Below, piece by piece: positions 17,006-24,223 of a DNA stretch of 48,855 nt. Position numbers and translations under genes: made by a program. The stretch comes from Flavobacteriales bacterium. GTDB taxonomy: Bacteria > Bacteroidota > Bacteroidia > Flavobacteriales > Schleiferiaceae. Positions within the stretch are counted from its first letter, which is position 1. The number at the start of each line of letters is the position of its first letter. Location: positions 1-48,855 of the forward strand of contig NSIH01000008.1 of the NCBI GenBank assembly GCA_002737315.1. The letters are read 5' to 3'. The notes beneath the pieces are model-generated. The model searched no databases. It worked only from the letters and a program-made list of their open reading frames with translations, and was not told the origin of the DNA.

Positions 17006-20000
17006 TCAGCTGCTGCGAAGATGGACTTTGACTGGATTCTGACCCACCGTGGAGGCGCGATTCGGTTTGGCTGGCGCGGGTATCAAATGAGCAGGCGTTT
17101 CGTCAAAGCGCGGATCCAGGAGCGCGGAACATCGATTCAAGTGCTGCACGGAGAGGCTTGCGTAGCCGTATTCTGCAGAAATTCTGCCCGACATTTGGTA
17201 GATTCCGCGGCGGCGAATTGCGTGGCGAGCCACTGCCGGCGGAAAAAGTACCACATCGAATACCACTCCTCGGCGGTCTTCAAAGGTTCCGATTTGCATC
17301 CAATCGCCACGCTGCGTTTTGGTGTTTTTAAGGCTTACTAGGTAGCCCAGGATTTCGGTGAAGAAACCAGGATGTTCCGGCCAATGCTCGGGCAGGACGC
17401 TGTTCTTGATTTCAGGGATTTTAAACAGTAAAAAGGGGTCGCAGAGGGGGAATCCGAAGAGTTCAATTTGCTCGTAGGCTTGCTCTAATTCATTGGTTTC
17501 TAGTATCGGTATATGGAGCTCCTTGCTGCGAAACTCTGCTAGAGAGTCAAACAAGCTGGGTCCGGGCGACGGTGGCGGACGGTGACCAAGGCGGCGGTGC
17601 GCTGCCCAAAGTAGTTTGCGGGCGGAGCAGTTCGTGAAGCGAAAGGCTTCGGCTCGGATTAAAAGGAGTAAGGAATCAAGCGGAACGTAACTGCCAGGAA
17701 GGTGAAGGCGGTCTATGAAGTCGTCTAAATCGAGAAAGGCTCCTCCCTCCTGACGGGAATACTCTATTCGACGGGCAAATTCGGAATCCAGGCTTCGAAT
17801 CCGGTCGGTTCCGAGAATTATGCGCAGGCCGCGAAGCAGGGTGAATGATCTTCCTTCGTTGACGCAGGGCGGCTCTACCCGCGCACCGTGGCGTCGAGCT
17901 TCTTGCAGGTACTGTTCTGCACGGTAGTAGCCGCCGCCGTTGTTGACACTGGCAACCATGTAGGGCACCGGGAAGTATGCTTTAAGATATAGGCTTTGAA
18001 AGCTTTCAACAGCGTAGGACGCGGAATGCCCCTTAGCAAAGGCATAGCCAGCGAAGCTTTCGATTTGGCGCCAGATTTCGCGGGATTCTTCGGCAGGATA
18101 GCCCCGCGCCGCACAGTTTTTAAAAAATTGCTCTTCCATCGCGTTGAATTCTTCTCGGGAACGGAATTTTCCGGACATTCCTCGCCTCAGGACGTCTGCC
18201 TCGGCCAAGGTTAGGCCCGCATACTCGTGCGCAACGCGGATGACGTCCTCTTGGTAAACCATGACTCCGTAGGTTTCTGGCAGAATCCCTAAAAGCATAG
18301 GATGCGCTTCAGAACGACGGACTGGATCGCGATGGCGGTCGATGTAGGCCTTCATCATTCCCGAAGAAGCAACACCCGGTCGAATGACGGAGCTGGCGGC
18401 AACAAGTTCCAAGTAGTTGGAAGTCTGCAGCTTGGTCATTAGCATTCGCATTGCGGGCGACTCCACATAAAAGCAACCCATAGCGCCACCGTTGCGGAGT
18501 AGCTCTAGGCAGTGCGGATCGTTTTTAAAGCGATGGCTGTCGTGGATGTCAGCCGTTGGGATGCCCGCAGCACGGAGGGTATCTAGCGTCTCTGATATTT
18601 TACTGAGTCCGCGTTGGCCGAGAATATCGAACTTATGAAGTCCAACGTCCTCGGCGGTATGCATATCAAAGTCAAGCGTCGGAAAGCCCTTGGGCGGCAT
18701 AAAGGTTGTCGACCAGGTAGTTAGCGGCGCCTTTGCGATAATGATTCCGCTGGAATGCAGCGTCATGCGGTTCGGAAGTCCGTGTAGAAGGCGGCCATAG
18801 CGCAGAATGCTGTGGGCGATTTCGTCGCGATCGCGTAGTTTGCCGTCGGCGAGTTCGTCGATATCAAATTTTGGGAGCCCCCAAACCTTACCCAGTTCTC
18901 TGACGACAGCCCGATGCTGGAAGGTGCTTACCGCACCAAGCAGTGCAGTATGGGGAAAGCGCGTGAAGATGTATTCGGTGAGCCGGGGTCGGTCGCGCCA
19001 GGAAAAGTCAATGTCAAAGTCGGGGGGGGCGCTGCGGTATAGATTGATGAATCGCTCAAAGTAAAGATCCAATTCAATAGGGTCAACATTCGTAATTTTA
19101 AGTAGATAGGCAACTACAGAGTTTGCTCCACTCCCCCGCCCTACGTAGAAGAAATTTTGCTTTTGGGCATAGCGAATAATGTCCCAGTTGAGTAGAAAGT
19201 AGGCCACAAAGTCTTTTTGCTGAATGAGGCCCAGTTCTTTCTCGAGGCGAGCTCGCAGCTGGGGGTCGCTGGATCGCCCCGGATAGCGCTCGGGCAAGGC
19301 ATCTTCGCAGAGCATTCTAAGGAGGGCTTGATCCTTGCCGGGTCGACCAGTGTAGCTGGACTGGTTTTGGTTTCCGGTTCCGCGCCACTGGTCGTAGGTC
19401 CAGTTTGGCAGATTGGCCAAAAAGCGTTCGGTTTGACGCCAAATCCAGGGCTCAAAGCGCTGCTGGGTGCGTTCTGATGATTCCCACCAGGGGTCACGCT
19501 CTTCGATGACTTCGTGCAAGGGCAAGTTGGCAAGGGTTCCGTTGCGGTTCACGGCACGGAGCACTCGGTGCAGTTCTGGATCTTCGGGTCGCATAAACAC
19601 GCAAGTCTTCCATGCCAGGGCCCGACTTGACTCCGGGTGTCGCTGAGCTCGAAGCTGCTCGTGGTCTGCGGTGCCCAACCACTCCCTAGGGCCCAGGGGG
19701 CGCTTTGGTGACCGCTGAATGGGGAAAATAACGTCAACCTCAGCGTGCAGTGGCCCTTGATGCCAGTCAGAGGGGTCGCCCACCCTTCCTTGGTTGCGCA
19801 TCTGGCTTACCCAATCCATAATAAATCGATAGGCTTCCATGGATCGAGGCAAAAGCAAAAGGGTTCGGATTCCGCCCTGACGCCAGTCAAGGCCGGGCTG
19901 CAGCGCGATACTGGCCTTGCGCAGCACCTGAAGCCAGGCTCCACTGCTGTTGATTTCTGCAAAAATGAGTCGCGGGCCGGCTCCCCACTGCTCCGCAAGA

Positions 20001-20065
20001 CGAAGCACCTGCTCGGGTGCATGCAGCCCAAAGCGCATGCTCATGGCTGAGTGAGTAATGCGCAC
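17006..20065 (-). CDS. DNA polymerase III alpha-like (DnaE2-type, error-prone candidate)
   Basis: C-family polymerase motifs VGRGSGANSVVAYLL, PPDFDIDFSWRDR, VMVYQEDV, SFAGYAFAKGHSASYA; 1019 aa; sits after dinB and SRAP in one operon. Confidence 0.9.
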   Translation of the reverse strand: MRITHSAMSMRFGLHAPEQVLRLAEQWGAGPRLIFAEINSSGAWLQVLRKASIALQPGLDWRQGGIRTLLLLPRSMEAYRFIMDWVSQMRNQGRVGDPSDWHQGPLHAEVDVIFPIQRSPKRPLGPREWLGTADHEQLRAQRHPESSRALAWKTCVFMRPEDPELHRVLRAVNRNGTLANLPLHEVIEERDPWWESSERTQQRFEPWIWRQTERFLANLPNWTYDQWRGTGNQNQSSYTGRPGKDQALLRMLCEDALPERYPGRSSDPQLRARLEKELGLIQQKDFVAYFLLNWDIIRYAQKQNFFYVGRGSGANSVVAYLLKITNVDPIELDLYFERFINLYRSAPPDFDIDFSWRDRPRLTEYIFTRFPHTALLGAVSTFQHRAVVRELGKVWGLPKFDIDELADGKLRDRDEIAHSILRYGRLLHGLPNRMTLHSSGIIIAKAPLTTWSTTFMPPKGFPTLDFDMHTAEDVGLHKFDILGQRGLSKISETLDTLRAAGIPTADIHDSHRFKNDPHCLELLRNGGAMGCFYVESPAMRMLMTKLQTSNYLELVAASSVIRPGVASSGMMKAYIDRHRDPVRRSEAHPMLLGILPETYGVMVYQEDVIRVAHEYAGLTLAEADVLRRGMSGKFRSREEFNAMEEQFFKNCAARGYPAEESREIWRQIESFAGYAFAKGHSASYAVESFQSLYLKAYFPVPYMVASVNNGGGYYRAEQYLQEARRHGARVEPPCVNEGRSFTLLRGLRIILGTDRIRSLDSEFARRIEYSRQEGGAFLDLDDFIDRLHLPGSYVPLDSLLLLIRAEAFRFTNCSARKLLWAAHRRLGHRPPPSPGPSLFDSLAEFRSKELHIPILETNELEQAYEQIELFGFPLCDPFLLFKIPEIKNSVLPEHWPEHPGFFTEILGYLVSLKNTKTQRGDWMQIGTFEDRRGVVFDVVLFPPAVARHAIRRRGIYQMSGRISAEYGYASLSVQHLNRCSALLDPRFDETPAHLIPAPAKPNRASTVGQNPVKVHLRSS

Positions 20066-20071
20066 GGCCCC

Positions 20072-20845
20072 TTACCTGCCGGCTTGATTATCGATGCTGC
20101 TGCGCAGAATAAGTGCCTCTTCGGGCATTATGCGCTCACCTATGGGCTGAAGAAGGTCCAATCCCTGAGCTCCGGGGTGCTTAATCGCCGGATTGATTGG
20201 GTAGGCATTCATGCCTTCTGAGGGCCATGGTCGGAGCAAGTCCGTGACGTCTGCCAAAGGAGTATCGGTGGCGAGCCAAGCAGCTTCGGATTCTTGCGAA
20301 AGAATGACTGGCGAACGCGGATGGCGAATATGCTGAAGCACCTCGTTTGCCGTAGTGGTAATAATAGCGAACGAAAACAGTTCGCGCTGGCTGTCTGGAT
20401 CCATCCAGGAGTCCCATATTCCAGCCATGGCAAACGGACGGTTTTTGCCTTGGAGATAAACCAAGTAGGGTTCGCTGAGTTTGCGGTCAAACGGACCTTC
20501 AATAAAGGCATCGGCCAAGACCAAGCAACGTTGACTCCGTATAGCTTTGCGAAAGCTAGGCTTCTGAATGATGCCCTTGGCCCCATTATAGCGCGGATCG
20601 TTGTCGGGATTATGATCGCCCTCCGCTCGAGCATTGATGAACATCATCTTCGAGGTGGCCCAAGAGGGGCGAAATCCAAACTGATAGAATTGAATCTGTT
20701 TTGGCGCATCACTGGTAACCACCGGCGTTGCGCTACCCGGAGCAATATTGGCATTTGCGCGCCATAGTTCCGGCTGAATCGCCTCAGCTCCAAAGCGCTT
20801 TTGGAGCACCTCGAGCTTGGATACCTGAACATAGCGACCGCACAT
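20072..20845 (-). CDS. SRAP domain protein (YedK/HMCES-like, SOS response-associated)
   Basis: N-terminal MCGRY (Cys2), NARAEG, DAFIEGP, TTANEVLQHIRHPRSPVIL. Confidence 0.93.
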   Translation of the reverse strand: MCGRYVQVSKLEVLQKRFGAEAIQPELWRANANIAPGSATPVVTSDAPKQIQFYQFGFRPSWATSKMMFINARAEGDHNPDNDPRYNGAKGIIQKPSFRKAIRSQRCLVLADAFIEGPFDRKLSEPYLVYLQGKNRPFAMAGIWDSWMDPDSQRELFSFAIITTTANEVLQHIRHPRSPVILSQESEAAWLATDTPLADVTDLLRPWPSEGMNAYPINPAIKHPGAQGLDLLQPIGERIMPEEALILRSSIDNQAGR

Positions 20846-20936
20846 AGTTAATTGATTCTTTGATTTAATTTATTATTATTAAAGTACTGGTTATAAATTA
20901 TTTATAAATGTACATAGTTAAAACCTATCGCCCCTT

Positions 20937-22148
20937 TTACTGCTTTCTATTGGCCAAAAGTGGCGGCGGATCCCCACTGAAGGGGTTGGGTCTTCCTATG
21001 GTTTGTGCAGCCATACCAAAGGCCCTAACTACAGCCCTGTCTCCGTAGCGAATCCGAATTCGATCCATCGCCTCACTCAATCGATACCCCCGGTCGTCCA
21101 GCTCAAAAAGGCCAAACTGCTCCCCTCCTCCTACCAGTCCACTAAAGCGAATTCCGATTAGGCGAACTCGCTGGCGCCGGTCGTGAAGCTGCCTAAAAAG
21201 GCTTTCAGCAACCTCTAAAAGCACGTGGTCCGCAGCAGTGTATGGGATTTGGCGCTGCCGCGAAACCGTTTGAAAGTCAGAATAGCGAATTCTCACCGAA
21301 ATATTGCTCGTGAGCCGATGGCCGCGCCGTAGCTGAAAGGCGAGGTTCTCGGTCATCGCCGCAAGCATGCCCTTGAGCTTAACCTCATCGAGCGTATCCT
21401 GCTCAAAAGTTCGCTCGGTCGAAATCGACTTGCGCTCATGATAGGGACTAACGGGGCGGTCATCCACTCCCTGGGCCTTGCTCCAGAGGTCCAAGCCGGG
21501 CTTGCCTAGAACCTGATAGAGTAGTTCGGAGGGCATCTCTTGGAGCGTTGCAATGCGCTGAACACCCAAGGCACGAAGAGACTGGTAGGTCTTCTCCCCC
21601 ACCATGGGAATTTTGCGCACCGAGAGTGGAGCCATAAACATCCGCTCAATACCTCGGGGCACGTGGCGATGGTTGTTTGGCTTGGCTTCTCCCGTAGCCA
21701 CCTTGGCAACCGTCTTGCTGGTTGACAGGCCAAAGGAAATTGGGAGTCCCGACTCGCGAATTACTCGATCGCGCAACTCCTGAGCAAACTCATAGGTTCC
21801 AAAAAATCGGTCCATGCCGCTTAAATCTGCATAGAATTCGTCGATAGACGCTTTTTCAAGCACAGGGACCGCCTCGCTCACAATCTCGGTCACCACCTTG
21901 GAATGCTTGGTGTACTCCATGGAATTACCTCGAACAACTACCGCTTCGGGGCAGAATTCGCGCGCCATGCGCATAGGCATTCCTGAACGTACGCCCGTCT
22001 GGCGAGCCTCGTAGCTGCAGGCCGCAACCACGCCTCGATCGCTTACTCCGCCCACGAGCACGGGAATTCCGTGCAGCCTGCTGTCCATAAGTCGCTCAAC
22101 AGATACAAAAAAGCTGTCAAGATCCATGTGGAGTACGGTGCGATCCAT
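20937..22148 (-). CDS. dinB: Y-family DNA polymerase IV
   Basis: VLHMDLDSFFVSVE, SIDEFYADLSGMDRFFG, GLSTSKTVAKVAT. Confidence 0.95.
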   Translation of the reverse strand: MDRTVLHMDLDSFFVSVERLMDSRLHGIPVLVGGVSDRGVVAACSYEARQTGVRSGMPMRMAREFCPEAVVVRGNSMEYTKHSKVVTEIVSEAVPVLEKASIDEFYADLSGMDRFFGTYEFAQELRDRVIRESGLPISFGLSTSKTVAKVATGEAKPNNHRHVPRGIERMFMAPLSVRKIPMVGEKTYQSLRALGVQRIATLQEMPSELLYQVLGKPGLDLWSKAQGVDDRPVSPYHERKSISTERTFEQDTLDEVKLKGMLAAMTENLAFQLRRGHRLTSNISVRIRYSDFQTVSRQRQIPYTAADHVLLEVAESLFRQLHDRRQRVRLIGIRFSGLVGGGEQFGLFELDDRGYRLSEAMDRIRIRYGDRAVVRAFGMAAQTIGRPNPFSGDPPPLLANRKQ

Positions 22149-22154
22149 GAATCC

Positions 22155-22934
22155 TTAGGCCACATGCTGGTTGAGCGAGCGGCGAAGTTCGTGTACTTCA
22201 CTTTGAAGGTTTTCTAGTCGGGCGAGAATTACCTGATCCATATTGGGCTTAGTTGTCAGGTCAAGCTGAATAAAGCCTTGAACCTTCCATACCTCAATGA
22301 GCTCATCAACGTGCACGGAATAGGGCTTGTATACGGGGTTGTCGGATACTAAATCCAGGCAGCCTGCCTCGGCAATGCGGTTGATGGCGCGCTTAAAGAC
22401 CACACCCTGCTCTTGAGTCAAAAAGACATAGAGTTCATTAGTCTTAATGCTTCGCCAGTCTTGAACATAGCTTGAAATCACGTAGGAACCTGACATAATG
22501 GGAAGCATACTGTCTCCTTGAATTTGAAAAACCCGTCGTGTTTCTTCTTGCGCAAACTCGGGAAGAGGAAGCGCAAACTGGGGTAAGGCTTCGATAAAAT
22601 CGAGATCGCCATAACCGCCCAGATAGCCCGCTGCTGCTTTGACCGGAACCACGGAAACTCGCTCACTCCCCTCGCGAGAGTCCACTGCTACCGTAAGCAC
22701 GCGAAGCTTTTGGCCCGACAGTTCTTTAGTGGTCCGCGCATCTCCCGACACCAATGCGTCAATACTGCAGGCAAACAACTGAGCCATAGCCTTGAGGCTG
22801 TCGAGCTTCGGCTCCGCCCTCCCCTCTTCGTAGGAGCCCACTTGGGCACGATTTAGCCCCAGTCGCTCTGCGAGTTGAGCTTGAGTCCATCCTTTGGTCT
22901 TGCGGCGGTTTTTGATTTGTTCTGCTAATGCCAT
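22155..22934 (-). CDS. XRE-HTH / S24 LexA-like repressor
   Basis: N-terminal HTH RLGLNRAQVGSYEEGRAEPKLDSL; S24 motif QIQGDSMLPI and VVFKRA (Ser/Lys dyad); AAAG Ala-Gly upstream as possible cleavage site. Confidence 0.92.
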   Translation of the reverse strand: MALAEQIKNRRKTKGWTQAQLAERLGLNRAQVGSYEEGRAEPKLDSLKAMAQLFACSIDALVSGDARTTKELSGQKLRVLTVAVDSREGSERVSVVPVKAAAGYLGGYGDLDFIEALPQFALPLPEFAQEETRRVFQIQGDSMLPIMSGSYVISSYVQDWRSIKTNELYVFLTQEQGVVFKRAINRIAEAGCLDLVSDNPVYKPYSVHVDELIEVWKVQGFIQLDLTTKPNMDQVILARLENLQSEVHELRRSLNQHVA

Positions 22935-22943
22935 GTTGTTAAA

Positions 22944-22984
22944 ATTAGTATGCTAATATAGTTAGTAATTCTAATTTATTCAAA
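22944..22984 (-). promoter_or_regulatory. promoter of the S24-dinB-SRAP-dnaE operon with two operator-like inverted repeats
   Basis: Minus strand TTTG-N20-TATATTAG; ATTAGAATTACTAAC (22961-22975) and ATTAGCATACTAAT (22944-22957). Confidence 0.6.
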
Positions 22985-22990
22985 TTTTTT

Positions 22991-24223
22991 TTAGATAGGC
23001 GCGCCCGCCATAGCATGTCCCGCAATCCACCCAGTCGTCCAGGCTGCCTGAAAGTTGAATCCACCCGTGAGGGCGTCGATATCGAGTAATTCGCCCGCAA
23101 AATAGAGCCCTGGATGCAGGCGGCTTTGCATCGTGGTAAACGAAACTTCCTCGAGAGCCACTCCGCCAGAGGTAACAAACTCGTCTTTGTTGGTGGATTT
23201 TCCGACCACATTGAAAGCGGATTCCGTGAGCACCTCAGCCCACTTGCGCAGCTGTGGTTTGCTTAAATCAGACCAATTGGCGGCATCAGGAATCCGAGCA
23301 AAGGCTGCTAGGGACTGCCACAAACGAAGCGGAATGCCAAACAGGGCGTTGGAACGAACGCGCTTGCGCTGGTGATTGACGTCCTTGCGCAGAGCATTGA
23401 GCTCGTCCAGCAACTCTTCGGTACTAAACTGGGGCGTCCAATTGACATAAATAGTGAAGCGGTGGTCGCAATTGGCCATCCATCGCGCTCCGAATGCACT
23501 CATTTTAAGCACTGCTGGGCCGCTTAAGCCCCAGTGCGTGATGAGCATCGGCCCCTCTGTTTCGAGTCCGCCAACGGGAACCGTTACGCGCACGTTGGCG
23601 AGGGAAACCCCCGACAGGTCTTCTATGCGCGGATCCCTGACGTTAAAGGTAAAAAGCGAAGGTATTGGCGGCACGATTTGGTGGCCTAATTCCGCGAGCA
23701 CATCCCAAGTTTTTTTACTGGATCCGGGGGCTAAAAGTACCCGGTCCGCCTCAATAACACGCCCGCTCTCTAAGATCAAACTCCAACTGCCGCTGGGTTG
23801 TAGAATAAGGTTTTTTAGGCCCGAATGCAGCTCGAAACGAACGTCAGCAGACTCCGCCATGGAGAGCAAGCAATCTATAATAGTTTGAGAGTCGTCGGTA
23901 ACAGGAAAAACTCGCCCGTCTTCTTCGACCTTGAGCGATACGCCACGATCTTCAAACCACTCCATGGTGTCGCCGCAGGCAAAACGAGAAAAGGGGCCAA
24001 GCAATTCCTGCCCGCCCCTCGGGTAATAGTCTATTAGGTCGCGAGGGTCAAAGCATGCATGAGTTACGTTGCATCGCCCTCCCCCTGAAATACGAACTTT
24101 TCCGAGGAATTGTGCGGACTTTTCAAGGAGGTAAACTTGAGCCTGAGGATTGGCTTCTGCTGCTGCAATAGCGGCAAAAAAACCCGCGGCTCCACCACCA
24201 ACGACTACCAAACGCTCTGACAT
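22991..24223 (-). CDS. HI0933/BaiN-type NAD(P)/FAD-dependent oxidoreductase
   Basis: VVVGGGAAGFFAAIAAAE, GKVRISGGGRCNVTH, C-terminal GELLDIDALTGGFNFQAAWTTGW. Confidence 0.93.
   Translation of the reverse strand: MSERLVVVGGGAAGFFAAIAAAEANPQAQVYLLEKSAQFLGKVRISGGGRCNVTHACFDPRDLIDYYPRGGQELLGPFSRFACGDTMEWFEDRGVSLKVEEDGRVFPVTDDSQTIIDCLLSMAESADVRFELHSGLKNLILQPSGSWSLILESGRVIEADRVLLAPGSSKKTWDVLAELGHQIVPPIPSLFTFNVRDPRIEDLSGVSLANVRVTVPVGGLETEGPMLITHWGLSGPAVLKMSAFGARWMANCDHRFTIYVNWTPQFSTEELLDELNALRKDVNHQRKRVRSNALFGIPLRLWQSLAAFARIPDAANWSDLSKPQLRKWAEVLTESAFNVVGKSTNKDEFVTSGGVALEEVSFTTMQSRLHPGLYFAGELLDIDALTGGFNFQAAWTTGWIAGHAMAGAPI

Follow-up and report, generated by a model that had tools for sequence, protein, structure and literature searches.

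The 56 bases in front of the S24 gene in the window analyzed here, a 48,855-nucleotide stretch of the genome of a Flavobacteriales bacterium (Schleiferiaceae), carry the promoter and the predicted operator of the repressor that this gene encodes. We regard it as highly probable that this gap is the promoter/operator region of a LexA-like, autoregulated mutagenesis operon, that a dimer of the S24 protein binds there to the sequence CTAA-N5-TTAG, and that the regulon comprises approximately one operon. A control system of this kind has already been described for Bacteroidetes (PMC8565304), and the one presented here is one further member.

The region under study (22990..22935, minus strand) lies between the stop codon of a gene for a HI0933-like flavoprotein (22991) and the ATG start codon of the S24 gene (22934), and the sequence and coordinates that a preliminary description had given for it match exactly. 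The S24 gene (22155..22934, minus strand) encodes a CI-type repressor of 259 amino acids, probably a non-canonical LexA protein by its Pfam domains (HTH_3 and Peptidase_S24), its invariant residues and its modeled structure. Downstream, and likewise on the minus strand, are the genes for a Y-family (DinB-like) DNA polymerase (20937..22148; Pfam IMS and IMS_C; MDLDSFF and SIDEF motifs present), a SRAP (SOS response associated peptidase) protein (20072..20845; Pfam SRAP) and a DnaE2-like homologue of the DNA polymerase III alpha subunit (17006..20065; Pfam DNA_pol3_alpha, finger and HHH_6), the four genes from S24 onward being spaced by 6, 91, and 6 bases, respectively. The DnaE2-like gene is a second dnaE copy; the replicative DnaE is encoded at G000:C6. 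This operon and its upstream neighbors are conserved across the genus, and the nearest named genomes are metagenome-assembled genomes (MAGs) labeled as Schleiferiaceae, Cryomorphaceae or Flavobacteriales. The gene order S24-SRAP-DnaE-DinB, instead of S24-DinB-SRAP-DnaE, is present at four loci (L056, L057, L058, L098).

The gap between the DinB and SRAP genes holds a conserved non-coding element of its own (20880..20928, minus strand; ATAG-N7-CTAT ... CCAGTACTTTA), which became visible in an alignment of loci L032-L051. At 14 loci, which represent more than a single genus, the ATAG-N7-CTAT motif (exact in 13 of the 14) is followed by a CCAGTATTTTA-like sequence, and the CCAGTATTTTA part is also found at locus L048, which lacks the SRAP gene. 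No CTAA-N5-TTAG sequence, no Rfam match and no covariation were detected for this element in the alignment of L032-L051, and Rfam yielded no match anywhere within positions 20700-23050.

We compared 19 congeneric S24 promoters, including that of the window, all read in the orientation of the gene. A −33 element TTTG (22981..22984, minus strand) precedes the −7 element TATATTAG (22953..22960, minus strand) by 20 nucleotides, so that the assignment of a Bacteroidota −33/−7 layout made earlier is upheld: TTTG (17/19) or CTTG (2/19) always stands 20 nucleotides in front of a −7 box that reads TAnnTTAG in all 19 promoters. Superimposed on this −7 box is the right arm of the predicted operator, whose core CTAA-CTATA-TTAG (22953..22965, minus strand) corresponds to the CTAA-N5-TTAG motif of PMC8565304 and is exact in each of the 19 promoters. 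Conservation extends into the flanks, yielding a 17-bp palindrome, TRCTAA-N5-TTAGYA (22951..22967, minus strand), in which the outer T/A pair is invariant and the R/Y pair is conserved (19/19), both symmetric about the center of the N5 spacer. This extended sequence is present at the S24 promoter of every genome of the genus that possesses the S24 gene, and the core is also exact in 25 of 51 further S24 promoters of the family, while its chance expectation at the local base composition is 0.002 per 60 bp.

A second, degraded operator (CTAA-TTTTA-ACAA; 22936..22948, minus strand) is recognizable by comparison with relatives 17 bp downstream of the first. In 12 of the 19 promoters the corresponding site matches CTAA-N5-TTAG exactly (six) or with one mismatch (six); in the clade of seven genomes to which the window belongs it carries three mismatches, and its right arm is gone. 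That all of these bases are conserved merely as −33/−7 promoter elements and RNA polymerase contacts, with no repressor site among them, strikes us as very improbable: although the TTTG element is practically invariant and TTAG coincides with part of the −7 box, the CTAA arm that closely precedes this box and the second site that follows it fall outside the promoter boxes and are (nearly) invariant nevertheless, and the same 17-mer recurs in front of recA in one congener (G018).

The preliminary description had proposed a different reading of the same bases, namely two ATTAG-N4/5-CTAAY inverted repeats, ATTAGAATTACTAAC (22961..22975, minus strand) in the promoter spacer and ATTAGCATACTAAT (22944..22957, minus strand) on the −7 box, each serving as an independent operator for one S24 dimer. 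Both strings are present at these positions, and the TTAG-N4-CTAA sequence underlying the second is shared by 18 of the 19 congeners and by 25 of 51 further relatives, but the role ascribed to the repeats was not confirmed, and the phase of the dyad was misjudged. The left arm of repeat 1 occurs in the window alone (1/19) and is missing from the other 18 promoters; bases at the −17/−18 position are otherwise random in the genus, and sisters with a 98%-identical S24 protein read ATTAAAATTACTAAC or ATTAAAAATACTAAC there. By conservation, only the CTAA arm of this repeat is functional, and the N5 gap of the repeat also disagrees with the N4 gap found elsewhere. Repeat 2 is indeed conserved, but as the stretch where operator site 1 adjoins what is left of site 2: it is embedded in CTAA-N5-TTAG-N4-CTAA-N5-TTAG, and 18 of 19 promoters retain TTAG-N4-CTAA because a second CTAA-N5-TTAG site starts 17 bp further downstream. 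Across the window, ATTAG-N4-CTAAT-like dyads (up to two mismatches) are not more frequent than in shuffled sequences (17 found versus 15.0 expected). The proposed operator is thus half a repeat out of register, and the actual CTAA-N5-TTAG sequence is split between the right arm of repeat 1 and the left arm of repeat 2.

TTAG-N4-CTAA is about as frequent among the promoters of the family as CTAA-N5-TTAG, and the assignment of the phase therefore rests in part on the symmetry of the flanks, on the comparison between genera and on published mutagenesis. The flanks of the N5 dyad are symmetric, whereas the positions inside the N4 spacer are not. In a second genus of the family (g6), the S24 promoters read TTAG-N4-CTAA-N5-TTAG, with the additional half-site upstream rather than downstream of the core; the N4 dyad thus draws on different half-sites in the two genera, and what they share is CTAA-N5-TTAG. 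The promoters of L057, L060, and L062, which come from outside the family, contain CTAA-N5-TTAG in the absence of any TTAG-N4-CTAA, and the mutagenesis reported in PMC8565304 likewise supports the N5 spacing. Given this evidence, we consider two separate ATTAG-N4/5-CTAAY operators improbable and take CTAA-N5-TTAG as the predicted binding sequence.

The S24 protein has the make-up expected of a self-cleaving repressor. An alignment of 21 sequences, from which loci with a match extending into a stop codon were left out, showed that the AAAG cleavage site recognized earlier is intact (KAAAG) with an invariant A102-G103 pair, and that S142 and K181, the residues of the Ser-Lys dyad, are invariant as well. 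We used an AlphaFold model of moderate overall quality (pLDDT 69) to define the domain make-up of the protein, and not the geometry of its dimer. In this model, the N-terminal domain consists of five helices with no strand (pLDDT 80-89), i.e., a wingless CI-type helix-turn-helix (HTH), while the C-terminal domain is LexA-like and the S24 domain is followed, with moderate confidence, by an extra terminal α-helix (residues 232-257). The nearest solved relatives of the HTH are the DNA-binding domains of the C2 repressor of phage P22 (TM 0.89-0.92) and of ImmR from ICEBs1. This kinship, together with the CI-type fold, would be compatible with a repressor of a prophage or mobile element and with dyads that serve as phage operators. 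Such an origin is, however, largely refuted by synteny, and we rate it as very remote: the operon with the Y-family polymerase, SRAP and DnaE genes and its upstream neighbors is conserved across the genus, each genome carries at most one S24 copy, and a Pfam scan assigned the neighboring genes to non-phage families only.

The arrangement of an S24 operon behind a Bacteroidota-type promoter whose −7 box is covered by the predicted operator is consistent with the autorepression proposed in the preliminary description, and by analogy with characterized members of the family, autorepression by the S24 protein is very likely. These relatives also serve as the guide for the binding, repression, cleavage and induction steps that we envision. 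An S24/CI-type dimer would bind CTAA-N5-TTAG over the −7 box (TTTG-N20-TAnnTTAG) and, since the operator covers this box, should block access of RNA polymerase, thereby silencing its own gene and those for the Y-family polymerase, the SRAP protein and the DnaE-like polymerase. In many relatives, a second dimer may occupy the adjoining site 17 bp downstream, which in the clade of the window would have decayed to one half-site. Damage to the DNA would relieve repression through RecA filaments that stimulate the repressor to cleave itself between Ala102 and Gly103.

How far does this regulon reach? In the genome from which the window derives, an 84%-complete MAG of 1.36 Mb, pattern searches revealed eight copies of CTAA-N5-TTAG, only one of which lies at the promoter of a recognizable SOS-type gene, that of S24. 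We discarded the other seven exact copies as regulatory sites; they are located within coding sequences or, at a gene for a ribosome-recycling-factor-like protein, overlap the stop codon. A 22-bp pattern with up to three mismatches matched the S24 site only. A regulon of DNA-repair genes, as suggested earlier, was not found: apart from the S24 site, the searches of this 84%-complete genome detected no copy at a promoter, be it that of recA or of another gene. Among the 22 genomes of the genus, the 17-bp pattern has four further copies, a number at or below that of the reversed-pattern control: one in front of recA in G018, two inside open reading frames (G014 and G021) and a fourth in G010. 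As an indicator of a wider regulon, this looser pattern was rejected, because its matches in the AT-rich congeners amount to noise that does not exceed the control. An operator site is absent from 19 of 20 congeneric recA promoters. Canonical LexA (LexA_DNA_bind, PF01726) was found in none of the 22 genomes (0/22), and each of them encodes at most one S24 protein and at most one Y-family polymerase. With no canonical LexA, a single S24 protein and no recA site, the system of the genus looks like a one-operon SOS regulon.

The situation at recA is different in genus g6. Here, all nine recA promoters (L182, L187, L190-L195, L197) possess CTAA-N5-TTAG-N4-CTAA 25 bp before the recA start, and in all four g6 genomes searched with a 16-bp pattern, S24 and recA each had a match; the regulation of recA hence appears to differ between genera of one family. 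In G018 (UBA3442), two CTAA-N5-TTAG sites are present upstream of recA (G018:C5:3380-3470; L159, L115) within an 85-bp stretch that is identical at 77 of 85 positions to the species' own S24 promoter (L044:6938-7025). The copy contains a run of 40 identical nucleotides spanning both operators, and even the S24 start codon is included. The bcp-recA gap measures 213 bp in G018 as compared to 123-168 bp in its congeners, as would be expected from an insertion. S24 is not followed by the polymerase and SRAP genes in G018, and neither a DnaE2-like gene nor a Y-family polymerase was found in this 84%-complete genome. From this one MAG, the arrangement has the appearance of a promoter capture. We therefore lean toward a scenario in which the SOS regulon of the genus shrank to a single mutagenesis operon that represses itself and does not include recA, and in which one species, while losing the polymerase genes, recaptured recA through a duplicate of the S24 promoter (~85 bp, with both operators and the S24 start codon).

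S24 repressors of Bacteroidetes with a CI-type HTH are non-canonical LexA proteins that form a clade separate from HdiR and the phage CI/C2 repressors (PMC8565304). One group of them binds CTAA-N5-TTAG, as demonstrated by EMSA and mutagenesis, with both arms and the length of the spacer being essential; target genes are induced by mitomycin C (RT-qPCR), and contracted regulons have been reported (PMC8565304). Judged by its domains, invariant residues, modeled terminal helix and the motif in its own promoter, the S24 protein of the window probably belongs with this group. It resembles WP_025606010.1 from Pontibacter actiniarum (PMC8565304) in its S24 peptidase domain, wingless CI-type HTH and terminal helix, and the two systems share CTAA-N5-TTAG in the repressor's own promoter and, by prediction, the control of error-prone polymerases. 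In contrast to the P. actiniarum group, the system of the window has a predicted single-operon regulon with no recA site, tandem sites 17 bp apart, and S24, Y-family polymerase, SRAP and DnaE genes united in one transcription unit. WP_075324850.1 from S. agarivorans represents the GGA-N5-TCC group of the same protein family; the dyad-N5 geometry is alike but the operator arms differ, and GGA-N5-TCC does not occur within the 56-bp region of the window.

With canonical LexA of E. coli, the S24 protein shares the C-terminal S24 domain, the Ala-Gly self-cleavage site and the logic of autoregulation, but it lacks the LexA_DNA_bind winged HTH and has a different operator. HdiR from Lactococcus and the phage CI/C2 repressors likewise combine a CI-type HTH with an S24 domain, whereas the protein of the window is chromosomally encoded together with a conserved mutagenesis operon. 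ImuA-ImuB-DnaE2 cassettes are similar in that they unite a Y-family protein with DnaE2 in an operon under damage control, which is predicted for the window; unlike these, the operon described here has no ImuA, its Y-family protein keeps the catalytic motifs, the repressor gene comes first, and SRAP is included.

S24 homologues (35-44% identical) from Marinifilum, Labilibaculum, Carboxylicivirga, Draconibacterium and relatives (L063-L091) are encoded divergently to DinB-DnaE and possess a different recognition helix (TRTTLAGYEKS). CTAA-N5-TTAG is absent from their S24/DinB intergenic regions (e.g., L067:6928-7001, L073:6857-7001, L082:6921-7001), which instead contain the palindromes GWCGA-N5-TCGTC and GACTA-N5-TAGTC at a distance of 23 bp. 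Neither of the two motif groups has been reported in Bacteroidales (PMC8565304), and these palindromes possibly represent a further motif class.

The data presented here provide the correct operator for experiments, in which mutating the arm of repeat 1 would mislead, and they add marine, Schleiferiaceae/Cryomorphaceae-like Flavobacteriales with small genomes to the range of the non-canonical LexA system. If the proposed history is true, the events at recA would offer a concrete molecular route for the rewiring of a LexA regulon. A natural series in which recA is under control in one genus, free of it in another and brought back in one species through a copied promoter would then serve as a test case for the contraction and re-expansion of SOS regulons.
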